Shown piece by piece: positions 45,500 to 59,632 of a stretch of DNA of 64,000 nt (positions are counted from its first letter, which is position 1; each line of letters begins with the position of its first letter). Origin of the DNA: Halorubrum rubrum. GTDB lineage: Archaea; Halobacteriota; Halobacteria; Halobacteriales; Haloferacaceae. The stretch is taken from NCBI RefSeq assembly GCF_024494685.1, contig NZ_JANHDM010000003.1, forward strand, positions 124,001 through 188,000. The letters run 5' to 3'. The notes under the pieces are model-generated. The model saw only the letters and a program-made list of their open reading frames with translations, was not told the DNA's origin and did no database searches. The position numbers and the translations under genes are program-made.

Positions 45500-45890
45500 G
45501 AACGGTCGGATCCGCGCCGGTCCGCCCCCTCGTCGACCGCGATACGCACTTCCTCGTCGGCCAACTCGGCCCTCGCGTGGCGCGTCGCCTTCTCGCCCCA
45601 CTCGTAGAGGTGATACCGGCCGGCGGTCGTCTCCGGGATCCTCTCGAATTCTCTCGGCGTGACCGCGTCCATCGAGGTCGCCGGGGTGTCGACGCCCAAT
45701 AGCCGAACCGTGTCCGTCTCCCCGTTCGGGAACTCGACTTCGATCGTGTCGCCGTCGACCACTCGGGTGACGGTCCACTCGGTCCCCGTCTCCGGACCGT
45801 GGGGCTCGGTCGCGGGTTCGTTCGAGTCGGGAACCGGCGAGGACCGGTCGTCGACGACGGTTCCGGCACAACCCAGAAGTATCCGATCAA
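45500..45890 (-). pseudogene. Broken thermonuclease-like (SNase) lipoprotein
   Basis: One minus-strand frame reads ILLGCAGTVVDDRSS (a lipobox), then a linker, then VTRVVDGDTIEVEFPNGE, VRLLGVDTPATS and EWGEKATRHARAELADEEV, which is the start of a staphylococcal-nuclease-like domain with its catalytic Asp/Arg region. No start codon with a signal peptide exists: the frame continues upstream into AAYYFLPVSGVDPDDLVDR and hits a stop at 45988-45990. Downstream of EGADRRG the domain ends abruptly at AT-richer DNA near 45430-45500. Both ends look lost. Confidence 0.65.
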
Positions 45891-46009
45891 CGAGGTCGTC
45901 GGGATCGACACCACTGACCGGGAGAAAGTAGTAGGCTGCCCGATAAACGGGGGGATGGTGAGCGAAATCCGCTCTGGCGATAGCACGCTACATACATCGA
46001 CCATCACCA

Positions 46010-47038
46010 ATGGAAAGACTCAGAATCGACCCGAACACATACACGTCGGAGTCTAAGAGCACACGCAACATAATGGACCCTCAGCGTTACATCACTACCC
46101 TTCCGACGTTCATTGCCCTGGACAGCTACACAGTTCTCGCTGGCCAGAGACAGGGAGCGAGCGTCCAGCTCGACGAGACGTATTTCTCCGGGCAGTTACA
46201 AGCCTTTGAGGCATTTGACGGCGATACCCCTGAATCCTCGAACTCAAGTCGCGGACAACGGTCGCGAGATCTCCGAGAATCGAGACGCGCGTACAGAAGC
46301 ATCAAGGTCGACGTGGATACACTCACGGAGGACGGTCTGTGGACTGCATCGACACAGTTTCGCCGAGAGTTACAGCGCATTCCCGAAATGAGTTATCTCG
46401 AGCGCCAGTTCCCGGGACAGTGTTTCGTCGTCCCGGAATGGCTTCGAACTGAAGGTCACCTCCACTATGGGGCACGCGTCTATTTCTTCCAGGACGACGA
46501 CTCCACGACTCCGAAGGACGTGATACAGGAAAATATCGACGGGATTCTGAGTGACTCGTTCTCAAAATTCGAACGATATCAGGGACGGTTACACGGCTAT
46601 CCGGACTGCTGTATCGACTTTTACCACGAACGCTCGTCGAACGCTCCCTCGCCCGAATGGCGTTCGATCGAACCATTCGCTGACCGAATCAACGAAGCTG
46701 CTCTCGGAAATGACCTCTCTGTATCAATCGACGATATGTTGCCACAGTTCTCAAGTTGGGATGATCGGTATGCGTTCTTCGCCCGGGAATTCTTTCCCGA
46801 GCTAGGTTGTGAGACTGCGCTGACGCAAGGGGAAGTGATCTTTGACAGCCTATCTTCTGAGTACCCCACTGCCCTTATCGAAGACTACTTCCGACTCAAC
46901 TTCGGCTATAATTACCTGATAGCTCGGGCAGTCCATACTGGCGGTACTCACCGACCAGTTCCCGGAGAACTCGGAAAGGAGCACCTCATGTTCTATCTAC
47001 CGCTACGAGAATTGTTGACAACTCCTCGATATTCTTGA
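46010..47038 (+). CDS. AT-rich gene of unknown function (DUF483-like CC motif, tentative)
   Basis: 342 residues if ATG 46010 is used; ATG 46073 (MDPQRYITTLPTF) is an equally possible start. It is visibly less G+C-rich than its neighbours, with codons such as att, ata and aga, and more Ser/Thr/Tyr and less Asp/Ala: a likely transfer. The stretch KFERYQGRLHGYPDCCIDFYHER (near 190-212) recalls the GYPxCC motif of archaeal DUF483 proteins; other regions are unrecognised. Its stop TGA is the first codon of an IS605-type end repeat. Confidence 0.75.
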   Translation: MERLRIDPNTYTSESKSTRNIMDPQRYITTLPTFIALDSYTVLAGQRQGASVQLDETYFSGQLQAFEAFDGDTPESSNSSRGQRSRDLRESRRAYRSIKVDVDTLTEDGLWTASTQFRRELQRIPEMSYLERQFPGQCFVVPEWLRTEGHLHYGARVYFFQDDDSTTPKDVIQENIDGILSDSFSKFERYQGRLHGYPDCCIDFYHERSSNAPSPEWRSIEPFADRINEAALGNDLSVSIDDMLPQFSSWDDRYAFFAREFFPELGCETALTQGEVIFDSLSSEYPTALIEDYFRLNFGYNYLIARAVHTGGTHRPVPGELGKEHLMFYLPLRELLTTPRYS

Positions 47039-47072
47039 CATCCTCCCCGCCCTGAAGGACGGGGTTTTAGCC
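47035..47072 (+). mobile_element. IS200/IS605-type end hairpin, copy A
   Basis: A 38-bp sequence starting ttgacatcctccccgccc and ending gttttagcc forms a near-perfect hairpin with a tgaa loop (one C-A mismatch). An almost identical copy lies at 47828-47865. Such hairpins mark the ends of haloarchaeal IS200/IS605 (TnpB-carrying) elements. No transposase or TnpB gene is present here. It provides the stop codon of the upstream AT-rich gene. Confidence 0.7.
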
Positions 47073-47199
47073 TCGCAACTTCGATAATCCCGATGCCAGA
47101 ATATGCGTGGAGTGAGCGAAGACGGACAAATCCACAGCGGATGAGATGCTCCGTTGTTCCTCCGCTGATTCCCGACAGACGAGAAATTTGGAGGGGGGG

Positions 47200-47206
47200 T
47201 ATATCC
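47200..47206 (+). promoter_or_regulatory. Box A for the second halocyanin gene
   Basis: The sequence tatatcc, preceded by a run of seven G, is centred about 31 bp before ATG 47234. Confidence 0.55.
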
Positions 47207-47233
47207 ATCTGGCCATGCTATTACAATCCGAAG

Positions 47234-47782
47234 ATGACCCGTTCACCTCTCACCAGGGCGGATAGACGAACTGTTCTCAAAGCACTTGGCGCCCTTTCGA
47301 CCGTCGGAATAACTGGATTGGCCGGTTGTGCAGGCGATGGTAACGGGGACGGAAACGGTGCTGATACACTTCCGGGTAGTGACTATCCGGCCGTCGACGA
47401 GTGGATGACCGAGACGGACGTCGGTGATGCGGCGAAGAATTACGATGGGGAGATCGTGGATCTCCGCGAGGAGAGCGATGTGTCGATAGACGTCGGAGCC
47501 GGGGACGACGGGTTAGCGTACGGGCCATCCGCGGTAGCCGTTTCGGCCGGAACCGAGATCCGGTGGGAGTGGACCGGCGAGGGCGGGGCACACAACGTCG
47601 AGGCCGAAGCGGACGAACAGATCGGCGAAACCGACTACGAGTTCAGCTCCGGAGAGGCAGAGACGGGCGACGACATCGAGTACACCCACACCTTCGACGA
47701 GGAGGGAATCGCCCTGTACCACTGCGAGCCCCACCTCTCGTTGGGAATGAAGGGCTCGGTCGTGATTGAGGAGGAGGAGTGA
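47234..47782 (+). CDS. Halocyanin (blue copper lipoprotein), second intact copy
   Basis: 182 residues from ATG 47234, which starts the signal TRADRRTVLKALGALST with twin arginines; the lipobox is LAGCAG. Copper ligands are the His of GGAHNV and the Cys, His and Met of YHCEPHLSLGMKG. The N-terminal half is a Gly/Asn/Asp linker followed by strands typical of the fold. It lies between two IS605-type end repeats beside a tRNA gene, with less G+C bias in its first third, which suggests it came in as cargo. It probably carries electrons to a terminal oxidase. Confidence 0.93.
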   Translation: MTRSPLTRADRRTVLKALGALSTVGITGLAGCAGDGNGDGNGADTLPGSDYPAVDEWMTETDVGDAAKNYDGEIVDLREESDVSIDVGAGDDGLAYGPSAVAVSAGTEIRWEWTGEGGAHNVEAEADEQIGETDYEFSSGEAETGDDIEYTHTFDEEGIALYHCEPHLSLGMKGSVVIEEEE

Positions 47783-50869: not shown

Positions 50870-52084
50870 CTACGCCGTGGCGTCCGCCACCGCGGCCAGC
50901 AGGTCCTCGCCGTCGACGTCGTCGGGGACCGTCACGACGCGCTCCGCCGCGTCCGCGATCCGACCGCGGGCGTCCGTCCGGTCGCGGTCGGTCCCGTTCC
51001 CGCCGACCACGACCGTGACGTCGGCGCTCGCGGCCAGTTCGCGCGCCGCCGCCAGCGGCTCGTCGGTGACCCCGGCGAAGGGCGGGACGGTCACGACCCG
51101 CGCGCCCGCTCCCGCATTCGCGGCGGCGACGGCGGCCGCGTCGCCCTCGGGAACGACGCCGAGCGAGACCGCGTGGCCGGCGGCCGCGAGCCGCGCCACG
51201 ACCCGCGCCGCGTCCGGGCCCGTGCCGACGACGTGGACTCGGCGGGGATCGGCGTCCGACCGCGGGAAGGCGGTGACCGCGGGCGTCCCGGTCGCCAGAT
51301 TGCGGCCGACGAACGCCTCCGCGTCGAACGCGTCGCGGACCGCCTCGGCGTCGAGCACGTCCGCGGGCGGACCGTCGGCGCGGACCCGGCCGCCGGCGAG
51401 GACGACGATCCGGTCGCAGTAGCGGGCCGCCATGTCGAGGTCGTGGATCGCCGCGACCGCGGCGCGGCCGTCGTCCGCGATGTCGCGGACGAGCTCCATC
51501 GTCGCCACGGCGTGGTTGACGTCGAGGCTCGCGGTCGGCTCGTCGAGCAGCAGCGTCGGCGTCTCCTGGGCGAGCGCCCGCGCGAGGAGGACGCGCTGGC
51601 GCTCGCCGCCCGACACCTCGGTTATCGACCGGTCGGCGAACCGCTCGACGCCGGCGGCGGCCATCGCCTCGTCGACCGCGGCCGCGTCCTCGGCGCCGTG
51701 GCCGTCGAACCGCCCGAGGTACGGGGTTCGCCCCATCTCGACGACGTGGCGCACCCGGAAGTCGAAGGAGAGCCCCGTCTCCTGTGGCACGCTCGCCACG
51801 CGGCGGGCGACCTCGCGGGCGGAGAGTCCCGACGTGGCGTCGCCGTCGAGGCGAACCGTCCCGTCGTCGGGCTCGATCGCTCCCGTCATCGCCCGAAGAA
51901 CGGTCGTCTTCCCCGCGCCGTTCGGGCCGACGAGGGCGACGAGCGTCCCCGGCTCGACGGTCAGATCGACGCCGGAGACCGCCTCGAGATCGCCGAACGA
52001 GACGGCCAGGTCACGGACGGCGACGGGCGGGTCGCCTGAGGGGAAACGACCGGCGGCGTCGGCGGAGGCGGCGTCCCCGCTCAC
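50870..52084 (-). CDS. btuD: ABC transporter ATP-binding protein (BtuD-type) with C-terminal extension
   Basis: 404 residues, GTG start at 52084 overlapping the stop of the permease gene. Walker A GPNGAGKT is at 53-60, the signature is VSGGERQR, Walker B LLLDEPTASLD, and IHDLDMAARYCDRIVVL follows. It powers import of cobalamin or an iron chelate with the adjacent BtuC-type permease and BtuF-type binding protein. The last 140 residues (RVHVVGTGPDAARVVARLAAAGHAVSLGVV...) form a Rossmann-like extension that typical BtuD proteins lack. Confidence 0.93.
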   Translation of the reverse strand: MSGDAASADAAGRFPSGDPPVAVRDLAVSFGDLEAVSGVDLTVEPGTLVALVGPNGAGKTTVLRAMTGAIEPDDGTVRLDGDATSGLSAREVARRVASVPQETGLSFDFRVRHVVEMGRTPYLGRFDGHGAEDAAAVDEAMAAAGVERFADRSITEVSGGERQRVLLARALAQETPTLLLDEPTASLDVNHAVATMELVRDIADDGRAAVAAIHDLDMAARYCDRIVVLAGGRVRADGPPADVLDAEAVRDAFDAEAFVGRNLATGTPAVTAFPRSDADPRRVHVVGTGPDAARVVARLAAAGHAVSLGVVPEGDAAAVAAANAGAGARVVTVPPFAGVTDEPLAAARELAASADVTVVVGGNGTDRDRTDARGRIADAAERVVTVPDDVDGEDLLAAVADATA

Positions 52085-53223
52085 AGCTCGTACACCTCGC
52101 GGTTCATCAGCAGGTAGACGAAGAAGGGCGCGCCGACGGCGGCGGTGACGACGCCGACCGGGAGCTCCGCGGAGCCGGAGCGGGCGGCCGTGTCGGCGGC
52201 GACGAGGAAGGCCCCGCCCGAGAGCGCGGCGGTCGGGAGCAGCACGCGGTGGTCGGGACCGACGACGAGCCGGAGCATGTGCGGGACGATCAGCCCGACG
52301 AACCCGATTATCCCCGCGAACGCGACCCCCGCGGCCGTGATCAGCGCGCTCGTCGCGAGCAGTATCCGCTTCGTGCGCTCGACGTCGATCCCGACCCCGC
52401 GAGCCTCCTCCTCGCCCAGCAGCAGGACGTTGAGATCGCGGGAGTACGCCAGAAGCACCGCGAAGAGCGGCGGGACGACGAGCGCGGTGACCCCGACCTC
52501 GCTCCAGGCGGCCCCGGAGAGGTGCCCCATCAGCCACGCGACGATCCGCCGGAGCGACTCGCCGGCCTGTAACTGGAGGTACGAGATGACCGCGCCGAGG
52601 AACGTCTGGACGGCGACGCCCGCCAAGAGCAGCGTCGCGACCGGCGTCCGGCCGTGTCGCGTCGCGATGGCGTACACGCCGAACGCCGCGATCAGCGCGC
52701 CGACGAACGCGAACAGGCTCACGCCGGTCCCGTAGGAGACGCCGACGTCGACCGCGCCGAGAAGCGGGAGCGTCAGCGTCGTCGACAGCGCGGTCGGGAA
52801 GACGATGAACGCCACCGCGCCGACCGCCGCGCCCGAGGAGACGCCGATGATCGACGGGTCGGCCATCGGATTTCGGAAGAAGCCCTGCATCACGGTGCCC
52901 GCGGCCGCGAGCGAGAATCCCACGAGCGCCGCGAGCAGGATCCGCGGAAGCCTGACGAGCAACACGATCCGCCGATGGACGTCGTCGACGGGAAAGGCGA
53001 ACGGCGACCGGTAGGCGAACTCGACGCCGGGCAGCGCAAGCGGGCCCGCGCCCGTCGCGCCGAACTCCACGCCCGCGGGCACGACCGCCGCGTTCAAGAC
53101 GATCTTCGTCACCTCCGCGGGCGGGATCTGGACCGGCCCGATCCCGGCGCTGACGACGACGACGACCGCCAGTACGGCCGCTAGCGCGGTCGACCACGCC
53201 GTGGCCCGACGCCGGACTCGCAT
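52081..53223 (-). CDS. btuC: FecCD/BtuC-type ABC transporter permease
   Basis: 380 residues from ATG 53223, with nine or ten hydrophobic helices. The conserved blocks GVSSGAAVGAVAFIV, LLAGVAVQTFLGAVISYLQL and IIGFVGLIVPHMLRLVVGPDHRVLLPTAALSGGAFLVAADTAARS are those of the FecCD family that imports vitamin B12 or iron siderophores. Its stop overlaps the ATPase start (GTGA), so the two are coupled. Divergent from the binding-protein gene, with shared promoter DNA. Confidence 0.95.
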   Translation of the reverse strand: MRVRRRATAWSTALAAVLAVVVVVSAGIGPVQIPPAEVTKIVLNAAVVPAGVEFGATGAGPLALPGVEFAYRSPFAFPVDDVHRRIVLLVRLPRILLAALVGFSLAAAGTVMQGFFRNPMADPSIIGVSSGAAVGAVAFIVFPTALSTTLTLPLLGAVDVGVSYGTGVSLFAFVGALIAAFGVYAIATRHGRTPVATLLLAGVAVQTFLGAVISYLQLQAGESLRRIVAWLMGHLSGAAWSEVGVTALVVPPLFAVLLAYSRDLNVLLLGEEEARGVGIDVERTKRILLATSALITAAGVAFAGIIGFVGLIVPHMLRLVVGPDHRVLLPTAALSGGAFLVAADTAARSGSAELPVGVVTAAVGAPFFVYLLMNREVYEL

Positions 53224-53250
53224 TCGATAGGCAACAAAACTTGTAGTAGG

Positions 53251-53260
53251 TAAATACTTA
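53251..53260. promoter_or_regulatory. Shared divergent promoter of the btuCD and btuF genes
   Basis: The sequence taaatactta gives a box A on either strand (taaatac plus, taagtattta minus), centred about 31 bp from both ATG 53286 and ATG 53223. The whole 62-bp gap is AT-rich relative to the genes. A single regulator could control both directions. Confidence 0.6.
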
Positions 53261-53285
53261 TTGAACCGGGCGCGTCGATACACCG

Positions 53286-54383
53286 ATGCGAGACAGCTTC
53301 GCGGTCGCGGTCGCCCTGCTCGTGACGACGGCCCTCGTGGGCGGCGTCGCGGGCGGAGCGGCGGGCGCACAGCCGACGAGCGGGATCGGAGACGCCCCGG
53401 AGGTTCGCCAGACGGACGGCTCCGACGAGTGTTCGTTCCCGCTCACCGTGACCGACGCGACGGGAGAGGAGATCACCCTCGAGGAGCCGCCGGAGCGGAT
53501 CACGACGACGAATCCGTCGGCCGCACAGACGCTGTGGGAGATCGGCGCGCGCGACCGCGTCGTCGGCGTGACCCAGTACGCGGCGTACCTCGACGGGGCC
53601 GGAGAGAGAACGAACGTCTCCGCGGAGGGACTCGGCGTCGACACCGAGAAGGTCGTCGGAACCGATCCGGACCTGGTGTTGGCTCCGAACGCCTCCGCCG
53701 ACGACGTGGAGCCGCTCCGGAACGCCGGGATCACGGTGTATCACTTCCCGGAGGCGACCGACGTCGAGGACATCGCCGGGAAGACGACGACCGCCGGCCG
53801 GCTGGTCGGCGAGTGCGAGGCCGCCGCCGAGACCAACGCGGAGATGAACGCCGCGGTCGAGGAGACCCGCGACCGGACCGCGGACATCGACCGCCCGGCC
53901 GCGCTCTACCCGCTGGGGAGCGGGTACGTCGCCGCCGGGGACACCTTCATCGACGAGCTCATGACGATCGGCGGGGTCGAGAACGTCGCCGCCGCCGACC
54001 ACGAGGGGTACCCGCAGCTCTCGGCGGAGGTCGTCCTCGAGATGGACCCCGAACTCATCCTCGTCAACGGCCCCGACGCGCCGATCGTGAACGAGGAGCC
54101 GTACGCGAGCACGACCGCCGGACGGGAGGGGAACACGGTCGTGGTGGAGGTCCAGTGGCTGAACCAGCCTGCACCGCGCAGCGTGATCGAGGCGACCACG
54201 ACGATCGCGGACGCCGTCGAGGAGTACAACGCGGCACAGGAGAGCGATGACGGGAACGGGACCGCCGACGCCGACGACGGATCGGCGGAGACCGACGACG
54301 GCGTTCCCGGCTTCGGCGTCGTCGCCGCGGTCCTCGCCGTACTCGCGACGCTCGCCGTCGGCACGACTCGTCGGCGGCCGTAG
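53286..54383 (+). CDS. btuF: Substrate-binding protein of a B12/iron-chelate ABC transporter with PGF-CTERM anchor
   Basis: 365 residues. A signal peptide (residues 1-27) is followed by two lobes of a BtuF/FhuD-like domain: PLTVTDATGEEITLEEPPERITTTNPSAAQTLWEIGARDRVVGVT then EVVLEMDPELILVNG. Residues 318-340 are an acidic linker and the end GVPGFGVVAAVLAVLATLAV with RRRP is a PGF-CTERM signal, so archaeosortase would lipid-anchor the protein on the outer face. It hands substrate to BtuC/BtuD encoded divergently. B12 versus siderophore cannot be settled. Confidence 0.92.
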   Translation: MRDSFAVAVALLVTTALVGGVAGGAAGAQPTSGIGDAPEVRQTDGSDECSFPLTVTDATGEEITLEEPPERITTTNPSAAQTLWEIGARDRVVGVTQYAAYLDGAGERTNVSAEGLGVDTEKVVGTDPDLVLAPNASADDVEPLRNAGITVYHFPEATDVEDIAGKTTTAGRLVGECEAAAETNAEMNAAVEETRDRTADIDRPAALYPLGSGYVAAGDTFIDELMTIGGVENVAAADHEGYPQLSAEVVLEMDPELILVNGPDAPIVNEEPYASTTAGREGNTVVVEVQWLNQPAPRSVIEATTTIADAVEEYNAAQESDDGNGTADADDGSAETDDGVPGFGVVAAVLAVLATLAVGTTRRRP

Positions 54384-54448: not shown

Positions 54449-55675
54449 TCAGATCCCCTGTCCCATCAGGTGGCTCCGCAACACGTCGGGCGTCTTGAGT
54501 CCGGCGTCGGTGTTGAGGAGGACGACCGTCTCCTCGCCGTCGAAGTACCCGTCCTCCGCGAGTCCCCACGCGCCGGCGGGCGCGGCCCCGCCGGCCGCAC
54601 CCATCTCGATCACCTCGTTCTGGGCGACGGCGACCGCGCTCGCGAGGACGTCCTCGTCGTCGACGGTCACCGCGGTCCCGCCGCTCTCCTCGATCGCCTC
54701 CAGGGCCGCGCGGCCGCCCGCGGGATCGGGGATCTCCAGTTCGCCACAGATGGTGTCGGGCGTCGACCACGGCTCCGGCTCGTCGAGCCCGCGGTCGAGC
54801 GCGGCCGCGATCGGGGCACAACCGCTCGCCTGGGCCGCGACCAGCCGGGGAGGCGCGTCGATCGCGCCGATCCGCGCGAGCTCGGCGAAGCCCTTGTACA
54901 CGCCCGCGAGCACCTCGCCGGTGCCGGTCGGGACGACGACGACGTCGGGCGCGCCGCCGAGGTCGTCGACGAGCTCGAACGCGACCGTCTTCACCCCCTC
55001 GTGGCGGTAGGGGGTCGCGAACTCGTTCAGGTCGGTGTACTCGGTCTCCAGCTGGTCGTCGACGGCGGCGGCCGCGTCGGGGTAGCGACCCCCCACGACT
55101 CGCATGTCGCCGCCGTGGACGTTCGTCATCGCCTTGTTCGAGAACGCGCAGCGCGAGGGGACGAACGCGTACGAGCGCAGGCCCGCACGCCCGGCGTACG
55201 CCGCCATCGACTGCCCGGCGTTGCCGGGGCTCGCGCACGCGAGCGGCTCGACGTCACGGTCGCCCGCGACTCCCGCGACCGCCGTGAGCGCGACGGAGAG
55301 CCCCCGGTCGAGGACGGTCCCCGTCGGGTTCCGCCCCTCGTCTTTGACGTAGACGGATTCGACGTCGAGTTCCTCGGCCAGCCGATCGGTCGGGACGAGC
55401 GGCGTCGATCCCTCGCTCCCCGAGAGCGCGGCGGAGGCGGGAAACGGCAGGAGCGCGTCGAACCGCCAGTGGCCCGGCGCGGGGGTCCGGCCGGAGTCGT
55501 CCCCGCCGACCGAGGCCGCGTGCGCCCCGAACGGCGCGTCGGGATCGACCGACTCGTAGTCGTAGGTCGCCTCGACGCGGCCCGTCTCGTCCGGGAGCTC
55601 CGCCGGGTCCGCCGTCTCGTACACCCGACCGGACGCGCGACTCTCCAGCCCGCGGAACGTCTCCGTCGTCTCCAT
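54449..55675 (-). CDS. Threonine synthase-like protein lacking the PLP lysine
   Basis: 408 residues from ATG 55675. The fold is that of threonine synthase-type PLP enzymes: VKDEGRNPTG (110-119), CASPGNAGQSMAAYAGRAGL, VPSRCAFSNKAMTNVHGGDMRVV and VVVPTGTGEVLAGVYKGFAEL. However, the expected SFKDRG reads TVLDRG, with Leu122 where the Schiff-base lysine should be, and the glycine loop is atypical (GTGEVLAG). It may be a non-catalytic paralogue or use another chemistry. Calling it threonine synthase outright is unsafe. Confidence 0.85.
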   Translation of the reverse strand: METTETFRGLESRASGRVYETADPAELPDETGRVEATYDYESVDPDAPFGAHAASVGGDDSGRTPAPGHWRFDALLPFPASAALSGSEGSTPLVPTDRLAEELDVESVYVKDEGRNPTGTVLDRGLSVALTAVAGVAGDRDVEPLACASPGNAGQSMAAYAGRAGLRSYAFVPSRCAFSNKAMTNVHGGDMRVVGGRYPDAAAAVDDQLETEYTDLNEFATPYRHEGVKTVAFELVDDLGGAPDVVVVPTGTGEVLAGVYKGFAELARIGAIDAPPRLVAAQASGCAPIAAALDRGLDEPEPWSTPDTICGELEIPDPAGGRAALEAIEESGGTAVTVDDEDVLASAVAVAQNEVIEMGAAGGAAPAGAWGLAEDGYFDGEETVVLLNTDAGLKTPDVLRSHLMGQGI

Positions 55676-55804
55676 ACGCGACCTTGCGGCGGGCCCGACT
55701 AATCGCTTCGCTTCCCGAGCGGCCGGCAAACGGTCACCGGCACGGGACGTGGCGTTCGCTCCGTCGCGCGGCCGCTTATTACCCGCCGGCCCGATGCCGA
55801 ACGT

Positions 55805-57121
55805 ATGGACGCAGAAGCCATCGTCGTCGGCGGCGGACTCGCCGGGCTCGTCTCGGCGGCCCGGATCGCGGAGGCGGGCGCGGACGTGACGCTCCTCGAA
55901 CGCCGGCCGCGCGTCGGCGGCCGGGTTCGCTCCCGCGAGGTCGAGGGCTTCACGCTCGACCGGGGGTTTCAGGTGCTGTTCACGAGCTACCCGGCCGTGG
56001 CGCGCGAGCTCGACACGGACGCGCTCGATCTCCGGCGGTTCTCGCCCGGCGCGACGATCTGTCGGCCGGGATCGCGGGCCGTCCTCTCGGACCCGCTCCG
56101 CGAGCCGACCGCCGCGATCGAGTCCGCGCTCAACCGCGAGGTCCCCTTCTCCGATAAGCTCCGAACGCTCGCGCTCCGGTACGACCTCTCGAAGCGCGCG
56201 AACGACGAGTTCTTCGCGGACGACGGTCCCGACGCGTCGATACGCGACTACCTCGCGGACTGGGGCTTCTCGAGCGACTACGTCGCGAACTTCGTCGAGC
56301 CCTTCTACGGCGGGATCACGCTCGACCGGTCGCTGTCGACCTCGAAGGCCGTCTTCGAGTACACCTTCCGCGCGATGAGCCGCGGGACGATCGCGATCCC
56401 CGCCGGGGGGATGGCGGCGATCCCCGACCAGCTGGCCGAGCGCGCCAGGGACGCCGGCGTCGAGGTCCGCACCGGCGAGGACGTCGAGGCGATCGACGTC
56501 GGCTCCGGCGGGCGGTTCCGGCTCGGAGCCGGGGGGACCGCCGACGGCGCGCGCGTCGAACTCGCTGACGGTGAAACGCTCGACGCGGAGTGCGTCGTCG
56601 TCGCGACCACGCCGCCCGAGGCCCGGCGGCTGACCGGCGTCGGGTCGATCCCCGAGTCCGGCGTCCCCAACGTCACCGCGTGGTTCGCGCTCCCCGAGCG
56701 GTCGTCGTTCGCGACCGGGCGGCGGATCCTTCTCAACGCGGCCGGCGGGTCGCCGAACGCGGTCGTGCCGATCTCGGAGGTCGCAACCGAGTACGCGCCC
56801 CGGAACCGCCCGCTGCTCGCGGCGACGTTCCTCGGCGAGGCGGCGCTGGAGCGCGACGCCGACGACCTCCGTGAGAGCACCCGAGAGGCGCTCTCGGCGT
56901 GGTACCCCGAGCGCGGATTCGAGAGCCTCGAGACCGTCGCCGTCGATCGGATCCCCTTCGCGCAGTTCGCCCAGCCGCCGGGCGTCCACGCGACCCTTCC
57001 AGACCCGGACGATCCCGAGGGATCGGTGGTGCTCGCGGGCGAGTACACCGAGTGGTCGTCGATCCAGGGCGCGTTAGAAAGCGGGCGGGCCGCGGCGGAG
57101 ACGGCGAGCGAGTACCTCTAG
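55805..57121 (+). CDS. FAD-dependent amine-oxidase/phytoene-desaturase-like oxidoreductase
   Basis: 438 residues. The N-terminal dinucleotide fold is AIVVGGGLAGLVSAARIAEAGADVTLLERRPRVGGRVRS (5-43). FTLDRGFQVLFTSYPAV is typical of the carotenoid desaturase/protoporphyrinogen-oxidase group, and VVLAGEYTEWSSIQGALESGRAAAETA is the C-terminal FAD site. It probably desaturates or oxidises a lipid or carotenoid-like substrate at the membrane. Its TAG stop is shared with the convergent gene (CTAG). Confidence 0.9.
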   Translation: MDAEAIVVGGGLAGLVSAARIAEAGADVTLLERRPRVGGRVRSREVEGFTLDRGFQVLFTSYPAVARELDTDALDLRRFSPGATICRPGSRAVLSDPLREPTAAIESALNREVPFSDKLRTLALRYDLSKRANDEFFADDGPDASIRDYLADWGFSSDYVANFVEPFYGGITLDRSLSTSKAVFEYTFRAMSRGTIAIPAGGMAAIPDQLAERARDAGVEVRTGEDVEAIDVGSGGRFRLGAGGTADGARVELADGETLDAECVVVATTPPEARRLTGVGSIPESGVPNVTAWFALPERSSFATGRRILLNAAGGSPNAVVPISEVATEYAPRNRPLLAATFLGEAALERDADDLRESTREALSAWYPERGFESLETVAVDRIPFAQFAQPPGVHATLPDPDDPEGSVVLAGEYTEWSSIQGALESGRAAAETASEYL

Positions 57122-58347
57122 TCGCCCGGCTGGTCGTCCACGGGCTCGTCCGTGCCGTCGCCCGAGTCCTCGTCCGGCAGCGTGAGCACGTTCTCGCGAC
57201 CCAGCCGGAACCCCTCCAACTCGCCCTCGTCGCGGAGCCCGGTCACCACCTGGCTCGTCTTGGCGGCCGTCCAGTCGAGCTCCTCGGCGACCCGCTTCTG
57301 TTTCATCCGACCTCCCTCGCGCTCGAGGAGCCGGAGCACCTGCTCCTCGTTGCTCAGAAGCTCCGCGTCGACCGGCGGCGCGTCCGCGTCGATCGAGTCG
57401 TCGGTGTCGGGTTCGTCGGTGTCCTCGGGTTCGCCGGGAGCGTCGTCCGCGACCGCCTCCGCCGGGGGTTCGTCGGCCGCGGCAGTCCCGACGGTCTCCG
57501 ACTCGACCGGCGTCGCCTCCGCCGCCGCGGACGACGACTCCCGATCGCGTCGGGAGTACGCCGCGATTCCACCGAGGACGACGAGGAGACCGACCGCGAC
57601 GAGGATCGGGAGCCCGCTCGGGACCGAGTCCACCACGGAGTCGGGACCCGCCGCGATGCGCGGCTCGCCCCCGGCGAAGTCGACCGGGCCGACCCAGACG
57701 ACCGATCCGTCTCGCGTCTCCGCGGGTTCGGGCGAGGCCGACTCCAGGTCGTGGGAGTCCGGCCACGAGACGATGAGCGAGCTCTCCTCGTCGAGGAACA
57801 TGCCGTCGACCGCGTCGCCGGCAGCGATCCGTCCGTCCTCGACGGTCGCAAACCCGCCCCAGCGGAACCGGTAGGTGACGACCCCGTACTCCTGGGGGAT
57901 CTCCCGACGCTCCGCAGTCACCGACACGTTCGAGACGCTCATCTCTCGGCCCGTGGCCGACGAGGACTCGTTTACCGTCGTCTCCATTCGCCCCCGGAAC
58001 CGATCGGAGTAGGCGTCGGGATTCGCTTCGAGGTCGGTCCGGAACTCCTCGAAGGCCCGTTCCTCGTCGCTCGTCGAGAGCCGGACCCGGTACTCGATCG
58101 TCCAGACCGCGTCGCCGTCGGCGTCGACGTCGACGGTGATCAACACGTCGTCGGGGTCGATCTCCTCCTGTTGGGCGAAGGGGTCCCCGGCGACCCCCGC
58201 GGCGCCGCCGGACGCGCAGACGAGCAGGCCGCCGACGAGGAGACCGACGACGAGGAGAGGACTGACGAGACGCCAGTCGAGCGTCGAGAGCGCCGTCGTT
58301 CGCTGCACGGCCGACACGACGCGGGGTCGGGCTAAATCGCTTCTCAT
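57118..58347 (-). CDS. Membrane-anchored HTH protein (one-component sensor, predicted)
   Basis: 409 residues. A leader helix (about 28-50) is followed by an outside domain (about 55-245) of strands with VSNVSVTAERREIPQEYGVVTYRFRW and SSLIVSWPDSHDL. A second helix, GLPILVAVGLLVVLGGIAAYS, comes next. An acidic linker leads to a C-terminal winged helix (LLSNEEQVLRLLEREGGRMKQKRVAEELDWTAAKTSQVVTGLRDEGEL). The layout is that of a transmembrane regulator with an outer sensor and an inner DNA-binding domain. It converges on the flavoprotein, with both stops in CTAG. Confidence 0.82.
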   Translation of the reverse strand: MRSDLARPRVVSAVQRTTALSTLDWRLVSPLLVVGLLVGGLLVCASGGAAGVAGDPFAQQEEIDPDDVLITVDVDADGDAVWTIEYRVRLSTSDEERAFEEFRTDLEANPDAYSDRFRGRMETTVNESSSATGREMSVSNVSVTAERREIPQEYGVVTYRFRWGGFATVEDGRIAAGDAVDGMFLDEESSLIVSWPDSHDLESASPEPAETRDGSVVWVGPVDFAGGEPRIAAGPDSVVDSVPSGLPILVAVGLLVVLGGIAAYSRRDRESSSAAAEATPVESETVGTAAADEPPAEAVADDAPGEPEDTDEPDTDDSIDADAPPVDAELLSNEEQVLRLLEREGGRMKQKRVAEELDWTAAKTSQVVTGLRDEGELEGFRLGRENVLTLPDEDSGDGTDEPVDDQPGD

Positions 58348-58389
58348 GTCCGTGGTCGGCTCCGGTCGTCCGGCACCGACGCGAGCACG

Positions 58390-59484
58390 CTACGGGCCAC
58401 CGCTCCGGTCGCCGCCGCTCGGTCCGTCCCCCGCACCCGAGCCCGGATCGGCCCCGGAGTCCGAACCGGAACCGCTCCCGGCGTCATCGTCGTCGCCGTC
58501 GCTCCCGGACGTTCCGTCGCCGCCCGGCTCGTCGTCGCCGTTCCCGTCGGTGACGTTCCCCCCGGTGCCCGTCCCGTCGTGGTCCGGTTCATCGCGTGTC
58601 GAGCCGTCGGCGGCGGACCCGTTCCGCGGTCCGGAGGCGTTGGCTCCGGGCTCGGAGGCGTCAGTTCCCGAAGGACCGCCTTCGGGGAGGTCGTCGATCG
58701 GACCGCCGCCGTCCGGACCGTCACTGCCGGGACCGCCCGGAGCGCCGACCCCGGATCCGGGCGGACCGCGGCGGTCGGGACCCATCGGCGCGCCGGTCCG
58801 GTTTCCACCTATCTCTCGGGCGATGGCGGCGGTCTCGGGACCGCTCAGTTCGCTCGCGCTCTCACGCAGGGTCCGGATCCGGTCGGCGTCGACGCCCCGC
58901 TCGACGAGCGTCTCCTCGGGCAGGCCCGCCGCGACCGCGGCGCTCCGGTTCGTCGTCCGATTCACCGTCGCCACGTGCGCCCCGATCGTCGCCGTTCGGG
59001 CGGCGTACGCGCCGGAACTCACGTTCCCCGCCTCCCGGCGTTCTCGAAGATCCCGTCTCCGCTCTCGCAGCTCCGTAAGCTGCTCCTCGTTCCGCTCGAG
59101 CTGCGCCGCGATCACGGCCGCGCGCTCCTCGTCGGTCTCCGCCTCCGCGAGCCGGATCTCGAAGGACCGCGAGGACACCTCGCCGTCGACCTCGGCCCCC
59201 TGGACGCCGACGACGCCGGAGAGCCGTTCGCCGGGGCTGAGGTCGTCCGCGGTGGATCCGCCGGAGGCGTTCGTGGCGCTCGTGTCGTTCGTGGCGTTCT
59301 CCGATCCGACCTGTGCGACCTCGTCGGTTCCCTCGCCGGCACCCGCGCCGTCGCCGGCACCCGCGCCGTCGCCGATCGCGGGCGGCGCACCGGGCTCGCC
59401 GGTCACCGCGGCTCCGAGCGGGACCATCGCGATCAGCCCCGCGACCGCCAGGGCTGCGACGAGCAACGTGATCCGTCGAGTCAT
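58390..59484 (-). CDS. Secreted Asp/Gly-rich haloarchaeal protein
   Basis: 364 residues from ATG 59484 (MTRRITLLVAALAVAGLIAMVPLG, a signal peptide); an in-frame start further upstream lacks this. Residues 85-215 contain a helical section (EIRLAEAETDEERAAVIAAQLERNEEQLTELRERRRDLRERREAG) that could be a coiled coil. The final 130 residues are Gly/Asp/Ser low complexity, rich in possible N-glycosylation sequons. It is probably exported. It lies directly upstream of the membrane-anchored HTH gene on the same strand (42-bp gap), so it may be its ligand or partner. Confidence 0.75.
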   Translation of the reverse strand: MTRRITLLVAALAVAGLIAMVPLGAAVTGEPGAPPAIGDGAGAGDGAGAGEGTDEVAQVGSENATNDTSATNASGGSTADDLSPGERLSGVVGVQGAEVDGEVSSRSFEIRLAEAETDEERAAVIAAQLERNEEQLTELRERRRDLRERREAGNVSSGAYAARTATIGAHVATVNRTTNRSAAVAAGLPEETLVERGVDADRIRTLRESASELSGPETAAIAREIGGNRTGAPMGPDRRGPPGSGVGAPGGPGSDGPDGGGPIDDLPEGGPSGTDASEPGANASGPRNGSAADGSTRDEPDHDGTGTGGNVTDGNGDDEPGGDGTSGSDGDDDDAGSGSGSDSGADPGSGAGDGPSGGDRSGGP

Positions 59485-59632
59485 ACCTTCCGATCGGCGA
59501 CCGACGCCTAAATACACCCGCACCCTTCGTTCCGGATCAAGCCCGATCAAGCCCGATTAAACCGGATGACGGCGTCGTGTCGGTTGAGCTGCCGGCTCGC
59601 GTGGACGTCGAGCGGAAACCGAGGCGGCCTGC

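Follow-up and report, generated by a model that had tools for sequence, protein, structure and literature searches.

The Halorubrum rubrum DNA analyzed here (a 64,000-nucleotide stretch, referred to as the window) contains a divergent gene pair, in which a minus-strand gene coding for a 408-aa relative of threonine synthase (ThrC) faces away from a gene for an FAD-dependent oxidoreductase (Table 1). The ThrC relative lacks the lysine with which pyridoxal phosphate (PLP) enzymes of this fold form a Schiff base, and such genes are referred to as Lys-less, as opposed to Lys-bearing. The oxidoreductase gene lies directly upstream at most Haloferacaceae Lys-less loci, in counts that include repeats of the same genomes, and it takes the same upstream position at Lys-bearing genes of several further families (f2, f3, f7, f8, and f9); outside the Haloferacaceae, Lys-less and Lys-bearing versions can thus fill one and the same place opposite the FAD oxidoreductase. 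Among the Natrialbaceae-type (f4) loci examined, L232 alone has the FAD neighbor, which some other loci lack as well, so a partnership between the two is not obligatory. Downstream there is a LysE-type translocator, accompanied in many genomes by a DtxR-type metal regulator and a GDT1 antiporter.

Table 1. Features of the Lys-less locus, in window positions
Feature	Position	Strand	Basis or remark
Lys-less threonine-synthase-fold protein, 408 aa, PF00291, ORF intact	54449..55675	-	Reading, AlphaFold2 (AF2) model; nearest solved folds are ThrC
Glu312 codon	54740..54742	-	Newly fixed in Haloferacaceae (31/31); Gly in Lys-bearing paralogue, Ala240 in Thermus ThrC
Former PLP-phosphate loop GTGEVLAG, residues 251-258	54902..54925	-	Glu254 codon 54914-54916; alignment
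NPTGTVLDRG segment	55301..55330	-	Leu122 codon CTC at 55310-55312 replaces Schiff-base lysine; flanks unchanged in orthologues
N-terminal 40 residues	55556..55675	-	Zn-ribbon CxxC...CxxC of most relatives; every cysteine lost in Halorubrum, window copy included
Putative divergent promoter region, 129 bp, common to Lys-less gene and FAD oxidoreductase	55676..55804	.	Predicted from sequence reading
AT-rich TATA-like boxes, ~25-28 bp upstream of the two ATG codons	55699-55703 and 55776-55780		Predicted from sequence reading
FAD-dependent oxidoreductase, PF01593 Amino_oxidase, HpnE/CrtI-like	55805..57121	+	Conserved divergent neighbor

The Lys-less open reading frame (55675..54449, minus strand) has an ATG start and 408 codons with no internal stops, and its key stretches are ...VKDEGRNPTGTVLDRGLSV... 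and ...VVVPTGTGEVLAG... In alignment, Leu122 (CTC, 55312-55310) pairs with Lys61 of Thermus threonine synthase, which bears out the central claim of the initial annotation that leucine replaces the Schiff-base lysine; the TVLDRG motif itself is at 55318-55301, six bases away from the 55307-55324 given there. The altered glycine loop (GTGEVLAG) reported at the same time also holds up, reading GTGEV where true ThrC has GNAGN and the Lys-bearing paralogue GGGVG. The protein matches PF00291 (PALP) with 219.3 bits against a gathering cut-off of 35 and is thus a member by sequence, but it lacks what a functional PLP enzyme of that family has: Leu122 is at the lysine position of SFKDRG, with residues other than lysine in the orthologues, and the glycine-rich phosphate-binding loop is replaced by GTGEV, with a glutamate that is invariant in the Haloferacaceae. 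It scores 132.3 bits against TIGR00260 (thrC), under the curated cut-off of 167.1, and its best family match, NF006050 (PRK08197), reaches 261.6 bits, below the cut-off of 303, whereas Lys-bearing forms score 364-409. An AF2 model (mean pLDDT 95.7, pTM 0.94) places threonine synthases at the top of a Foldseek ranking (E ~1e-25, TM normalized to the target 0.79-0.87 to bacterial ThrC), and bacterial threonine synthases are also the best solved relatives by sequence search; the protein is confidently predicted to adopt the threonine synthase fold. It is very probably not a Schiff-base PLP enzyme.

Lys-less orthologues were read directly in 27 of the 28 Haloferacaceae genera checked, the locus of the 28th being truncated before the motif, and the form is also present in many genera of other families. 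Leucine as such is not what selection has preserved, since beyond Halorubrum this position changes freely, with L, F, Y, H, I, V, T, A, S, G, R, D, E, and Q all represented in Lys-less genes. Despite this drift, T118, D123, and R124 do not vary, and N116, P117, and G119 hardly do. Halorubrum copies have a dN/dS of 0.19-0.28, similar to the 0.19-0.36 of the neighboring FAD gene, a sign of the purifying selection on which the initial annotation had made its reading depend. The protein has the sequence signature of a pseudoenzyme, in that an essential catalytic residue is missing while the remainder stays under purifying selection. Decay of the gene or a sequencing error, for which the two frameshifted copies seen might speak, is highly improbable, as the gene is intact in almost all genomes examined and the same leucine recurs in dozens of independently assembled genomes, including that of a second species whose gene is 91% identical. 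Together with the breadth of the Lys-less orthologues, the low dN/dS, the confident AF2 model, and the ranking of ThrC first by Foldseek, this argues against error and decay, and for the Lys-less family as a whole both are refuted. The protein almost certainly retains a function, and the initial view of a maintained pseudoenzyme or repurposed protein is strengthened further by the class-wide retention of Lys-less genes and by new invariant pocket residues. The frameshifted copies are L079/L127 (one scaffold, in the metagenome-derived genome A07HR67) and L154 (in the single-contig Halorubrum-genus genome G146), and represent either actual loss or assembly error; if they are real, the gene can on occasion be dispensed with. 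Separately, the Zn-ribbon cysteines are partly lost, with one cysteine remaining, in several further Lys-less genera.

There are 12 PF00291 genes in the H. rubrum genome. The canonical thrC that the initial annotation suggested looking for elsewhere has a candidate at contig C18:320717-321868, with SFKDRG and GNAGN motifs, and there is a closer, Lys-bearing paralogue at C22:41231-42442, with TFKDRGQ and GGGVG. We surveyed 194 Halobacteria genomes of at least 90% completeness with degenerate-codon patterns distinguishing Lys-less from Lys-bearing (FKDRG[QH]) forms; a reversed control pattern has no matches in the same genomes. Lys-less genes are present in 135 genomes and Lys-bearing genes in 77, with one Lys-less match in G195 perhaps at a second, unrelated site in a genome that also has a true one. 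All 70 Haloferacaceae genomes are Lys-less, with a Lys-bearing copy in addition in 33 and not in the other 37. Outside this family the two forms exclude each other, with 65 Lys-less and 44 Lys-bearing genomes and no overlap (Fisher p = 5e-21, with genomes counted as independent although they are not). The protein could serve, like SPTLC1 beside SPTLC2, as a subunit without catalytic activity in a heteromer that it forms with a Lys-bearing threonine synthase. Such a role would fit the 33 genomes with both forms and the persistence of canonical ThrC genes; it is nonetheless improbable, given the 37 Haloferacaceae genomes without a close paralogue and the lack of co-occurrence outside the family, which leave the distant canonical ThrC as the sole possible partner. 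The census rules out an obligate heteromer with the Lys-bearing paralogue. Where inspected, the patchy Lys-bearing copies of the Haloferacaceae are never at the FAD oxidoreductase locus, as if separately acquired or moved.

The census also pointed out two Lys-less genes, L221 (TFRDRG) and L222 (SRTDRG), in otherwise Lys-bearing genera. L221 is 79% identical to L240 and L222 is 79% identical to L146, and in both the FAD gene is placed as in the Lys-bearing sisters. In a tree with all pocket columns removed, L221 and L222 nest among Lys-bearing genes (branch support 91-99), and with these two genes added, a single Lys-less clade, named as the clade to be tested after the census and before this tree, is rejected (lnL difference 155, p-AU 0.0001, pocket columns removed). 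Earlier data had given a p-AU of 0.62 with a first reduced set (not rejected) and 0.03 with all data (weakly rejected). Because L221 and L222 nest within Lys-bearing genera and a single Lys-less origin is rejected, the lysine was lost at least three times with the gene kept: in the older lineage or lineages, in L221, and in L222. Three is a minimum, and the older Lys-less lineages may account for more than one loss. Gene pairs that include a recent loss have a dN/dS of 0.18-0.26, compared with 0.17 for Lys-bearing sister pairs, and the recent Lys-less genes are thus still constrained and slightly faster. Two genes, L165 (genome G267) and L136 (genome G260), have lysine at the catalytic position and altered loops (EGTEG and GAGTG) and group with Lys-less genes; their lysine may be a retention, a return, or drift.

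The pocket of the Haloferacaceae form has new fixed residues of its own. Glu254 and Glu312, placed in the pocket by alignment to Thermus ThrC, are invariant in 31 of 31 Haloferacaceae orthologues; the Lys-bearing paralogue has Val and Gly at these positions (Lys-bearing forms more broadly have Val or Gly at 254), and both vary in other Lys-less families. L313, G320, and G321 are likewise newly fixed in the Haloferacaceae, and Asn152 (94%) and Arg224 (100%) are retained. Thr389, which varies in the alignment, corresponds to the Thermus ThrC residue that contacts the pyridine nitrogen (N1). For the Haloferacaceae form only, this pattern agrees better with a rebuilt ligand site than with a damaged enzyme.

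If the protein still bound PLP, either non-covalently or through a different lysine (K181 or K111, for example), the unchanged fold and the near invariance of both lysines in Lys-less proteins would be accounted for. However, K181 and K111 are also present in Lys-bearing forms and therefore are no compensation for the loss, some Lys-less relatives (L184-L186) have Ala or Val in place of K111, and the phosphate loop of the Haloferacaceae carries an invariant glutamate while the N1-contact Thr389 varies; we regard continued PLP binding as improbable. The main rival to a non-catalytic role is a new enzyme, in which the rebuilt pocket (E254 and E312, with S149, N152, R224, and K181 kept) would convert a related amino acid or phospho-amino acid with neither the lysine nor PLP. 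Such a reaction could just as well be what E254 and E312 are for, and it agrees with the acidic residues that have become invariant where the old pocket was, with the substrate-side residues kept in the Haloferacaceae, and with the purifying selection on the gene; but E254 and E312 are not fixed outside the Haloferacaceae, so that the Lys-less genes as a whole are unlikely to share one new chemistry, and a new enzyme is rather unlikely overall.

We favor, at a probability of roughly 0.55, a maintained and probably non-catalytic, PLP-independent pseudoenzyme that belongs, among the fold-type-II PLP enzymes, to the threonine synthase branch; it may be a regulator that binds a ligand and has a link to the FAD oxidoreductase. 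A ligand-binding regulatory role, taken by itself, is somewhat less likely than not, and the FAD oxidoreductase as its partner is a tentative suggestion, a shared gene neighborhood being no proof of interaction. On this reading the family has a role independent of PLP chemistry, so that catalysis could be given up repeatedly, and the old active site of the Haloferacaceae form would have been rebuilt into a pocket for a non-PLP ligand. The two-domain clamshell would most likely bind an amino-acid-like ligand and change shape, and may serve an adjacent pathway as its sensor, its chaperone, or a regulatory partner; among candidate partners the divergent FAD oxidoreductase ranks first and the LysE-type exporter, which many relatives have downstream, second. 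A broader version, in which the core function of the family in Halobacteria never depended on PLP catalysis, the lysine was repeatedly discarded at one conserved locus, and the Haloferacaceae pocket was rebuilt around two invariant glutamates for binding or catalysis with a different ligand, is less likely than not.

Among known systems, ThrC (PDB 2zsj, 6nmx, 1v7c, and 2c2b) resembles the 408-aa protein in fold and over a full-length alignment (31-35% identity for bacterial forms), and the NPTG..DRG segment, the GN loop, and Arg224/Arg160 are retained; the 408-aa protein differs in the missing Schiff-base lysine, in GTGEV for GNAGN, in the N1-contact threonine that is not conserved, and in falling below the ThrC model cut-off (132 versus 167 bits). 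It shares its N-terminal domain and a C-terminal LRSHL segment with the NF006050/PRK08197 "threonine synthase" family, itself of putative function and represented in this genome by the Lys-bearing paralogue (C22:41231-42442); members with the lysine can be at the same locus in other families, and the 408-aa protein differs in lacking the lysine, the GGGVG loop, and the Zn-ribbon cysteines. SPTLC1 and the antizyme inhibitors are of fold types I and III, with one known loss each, in a eukaryotic lineage. The Lys-less threonine synthase relative differs from SPTLC1, AZIN1, and ADC in being of fold type II, archaeal, and class-wide, with recurrent loss at one locus. Nonenzymic roles are known for these Lys-less homologues of PLP enzymes, namely SPTLC1 and the antizyme inhibitors AZIN1 and ADC (PMC2748086). 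In the open-access literature, to which our search was confined, we found no published description of a Lys-less threonine synthase of haloarchaea. Disruption of thrC3 (HVO_2969) in Haloferax volcanii leads to a requirement for Gly/Ser/Thr (PMC4300041), and we equate thrC3 with no gene described here.

Lys-less proteins are probably labeled as threonine synthases in databases, and most members in this class-spanning sample are predicted to be unable to form the internal aldimine, so such labels affect pathway reconstruction in haloarchaea. That a PLP enzyme has repeatedly lost the single residue it cannot do without, at the same locus and with the gene retained, amounts to a natural replicate experiment in the passage from enzyme to non-enzyme, and the genetic tractability of Haloferax volcanii makes the question open to testing there.

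Several other features of the window are of note. Convergent btuF-like and btuC-like genes for cobalamin-type ABC transport (52081-54383) adjoin the Halorubrum copies only, for which reason a cobalamin link, suggested by these neighbors and by threonine phosphate being a B12 precursor, is rejected as a general role. At 57118-59550, genes for two uncharacterized proteins (DUF7345/DUF7343 and DUF7096) separate the FAD oxidoreductase gene from one that is prolyl-tRNA-synthetase-like. At 45799-47782 the third-position GC is low (0.59-0.68, versus ~0.9 around it), which suggests a recent insertion or foreign DNA.
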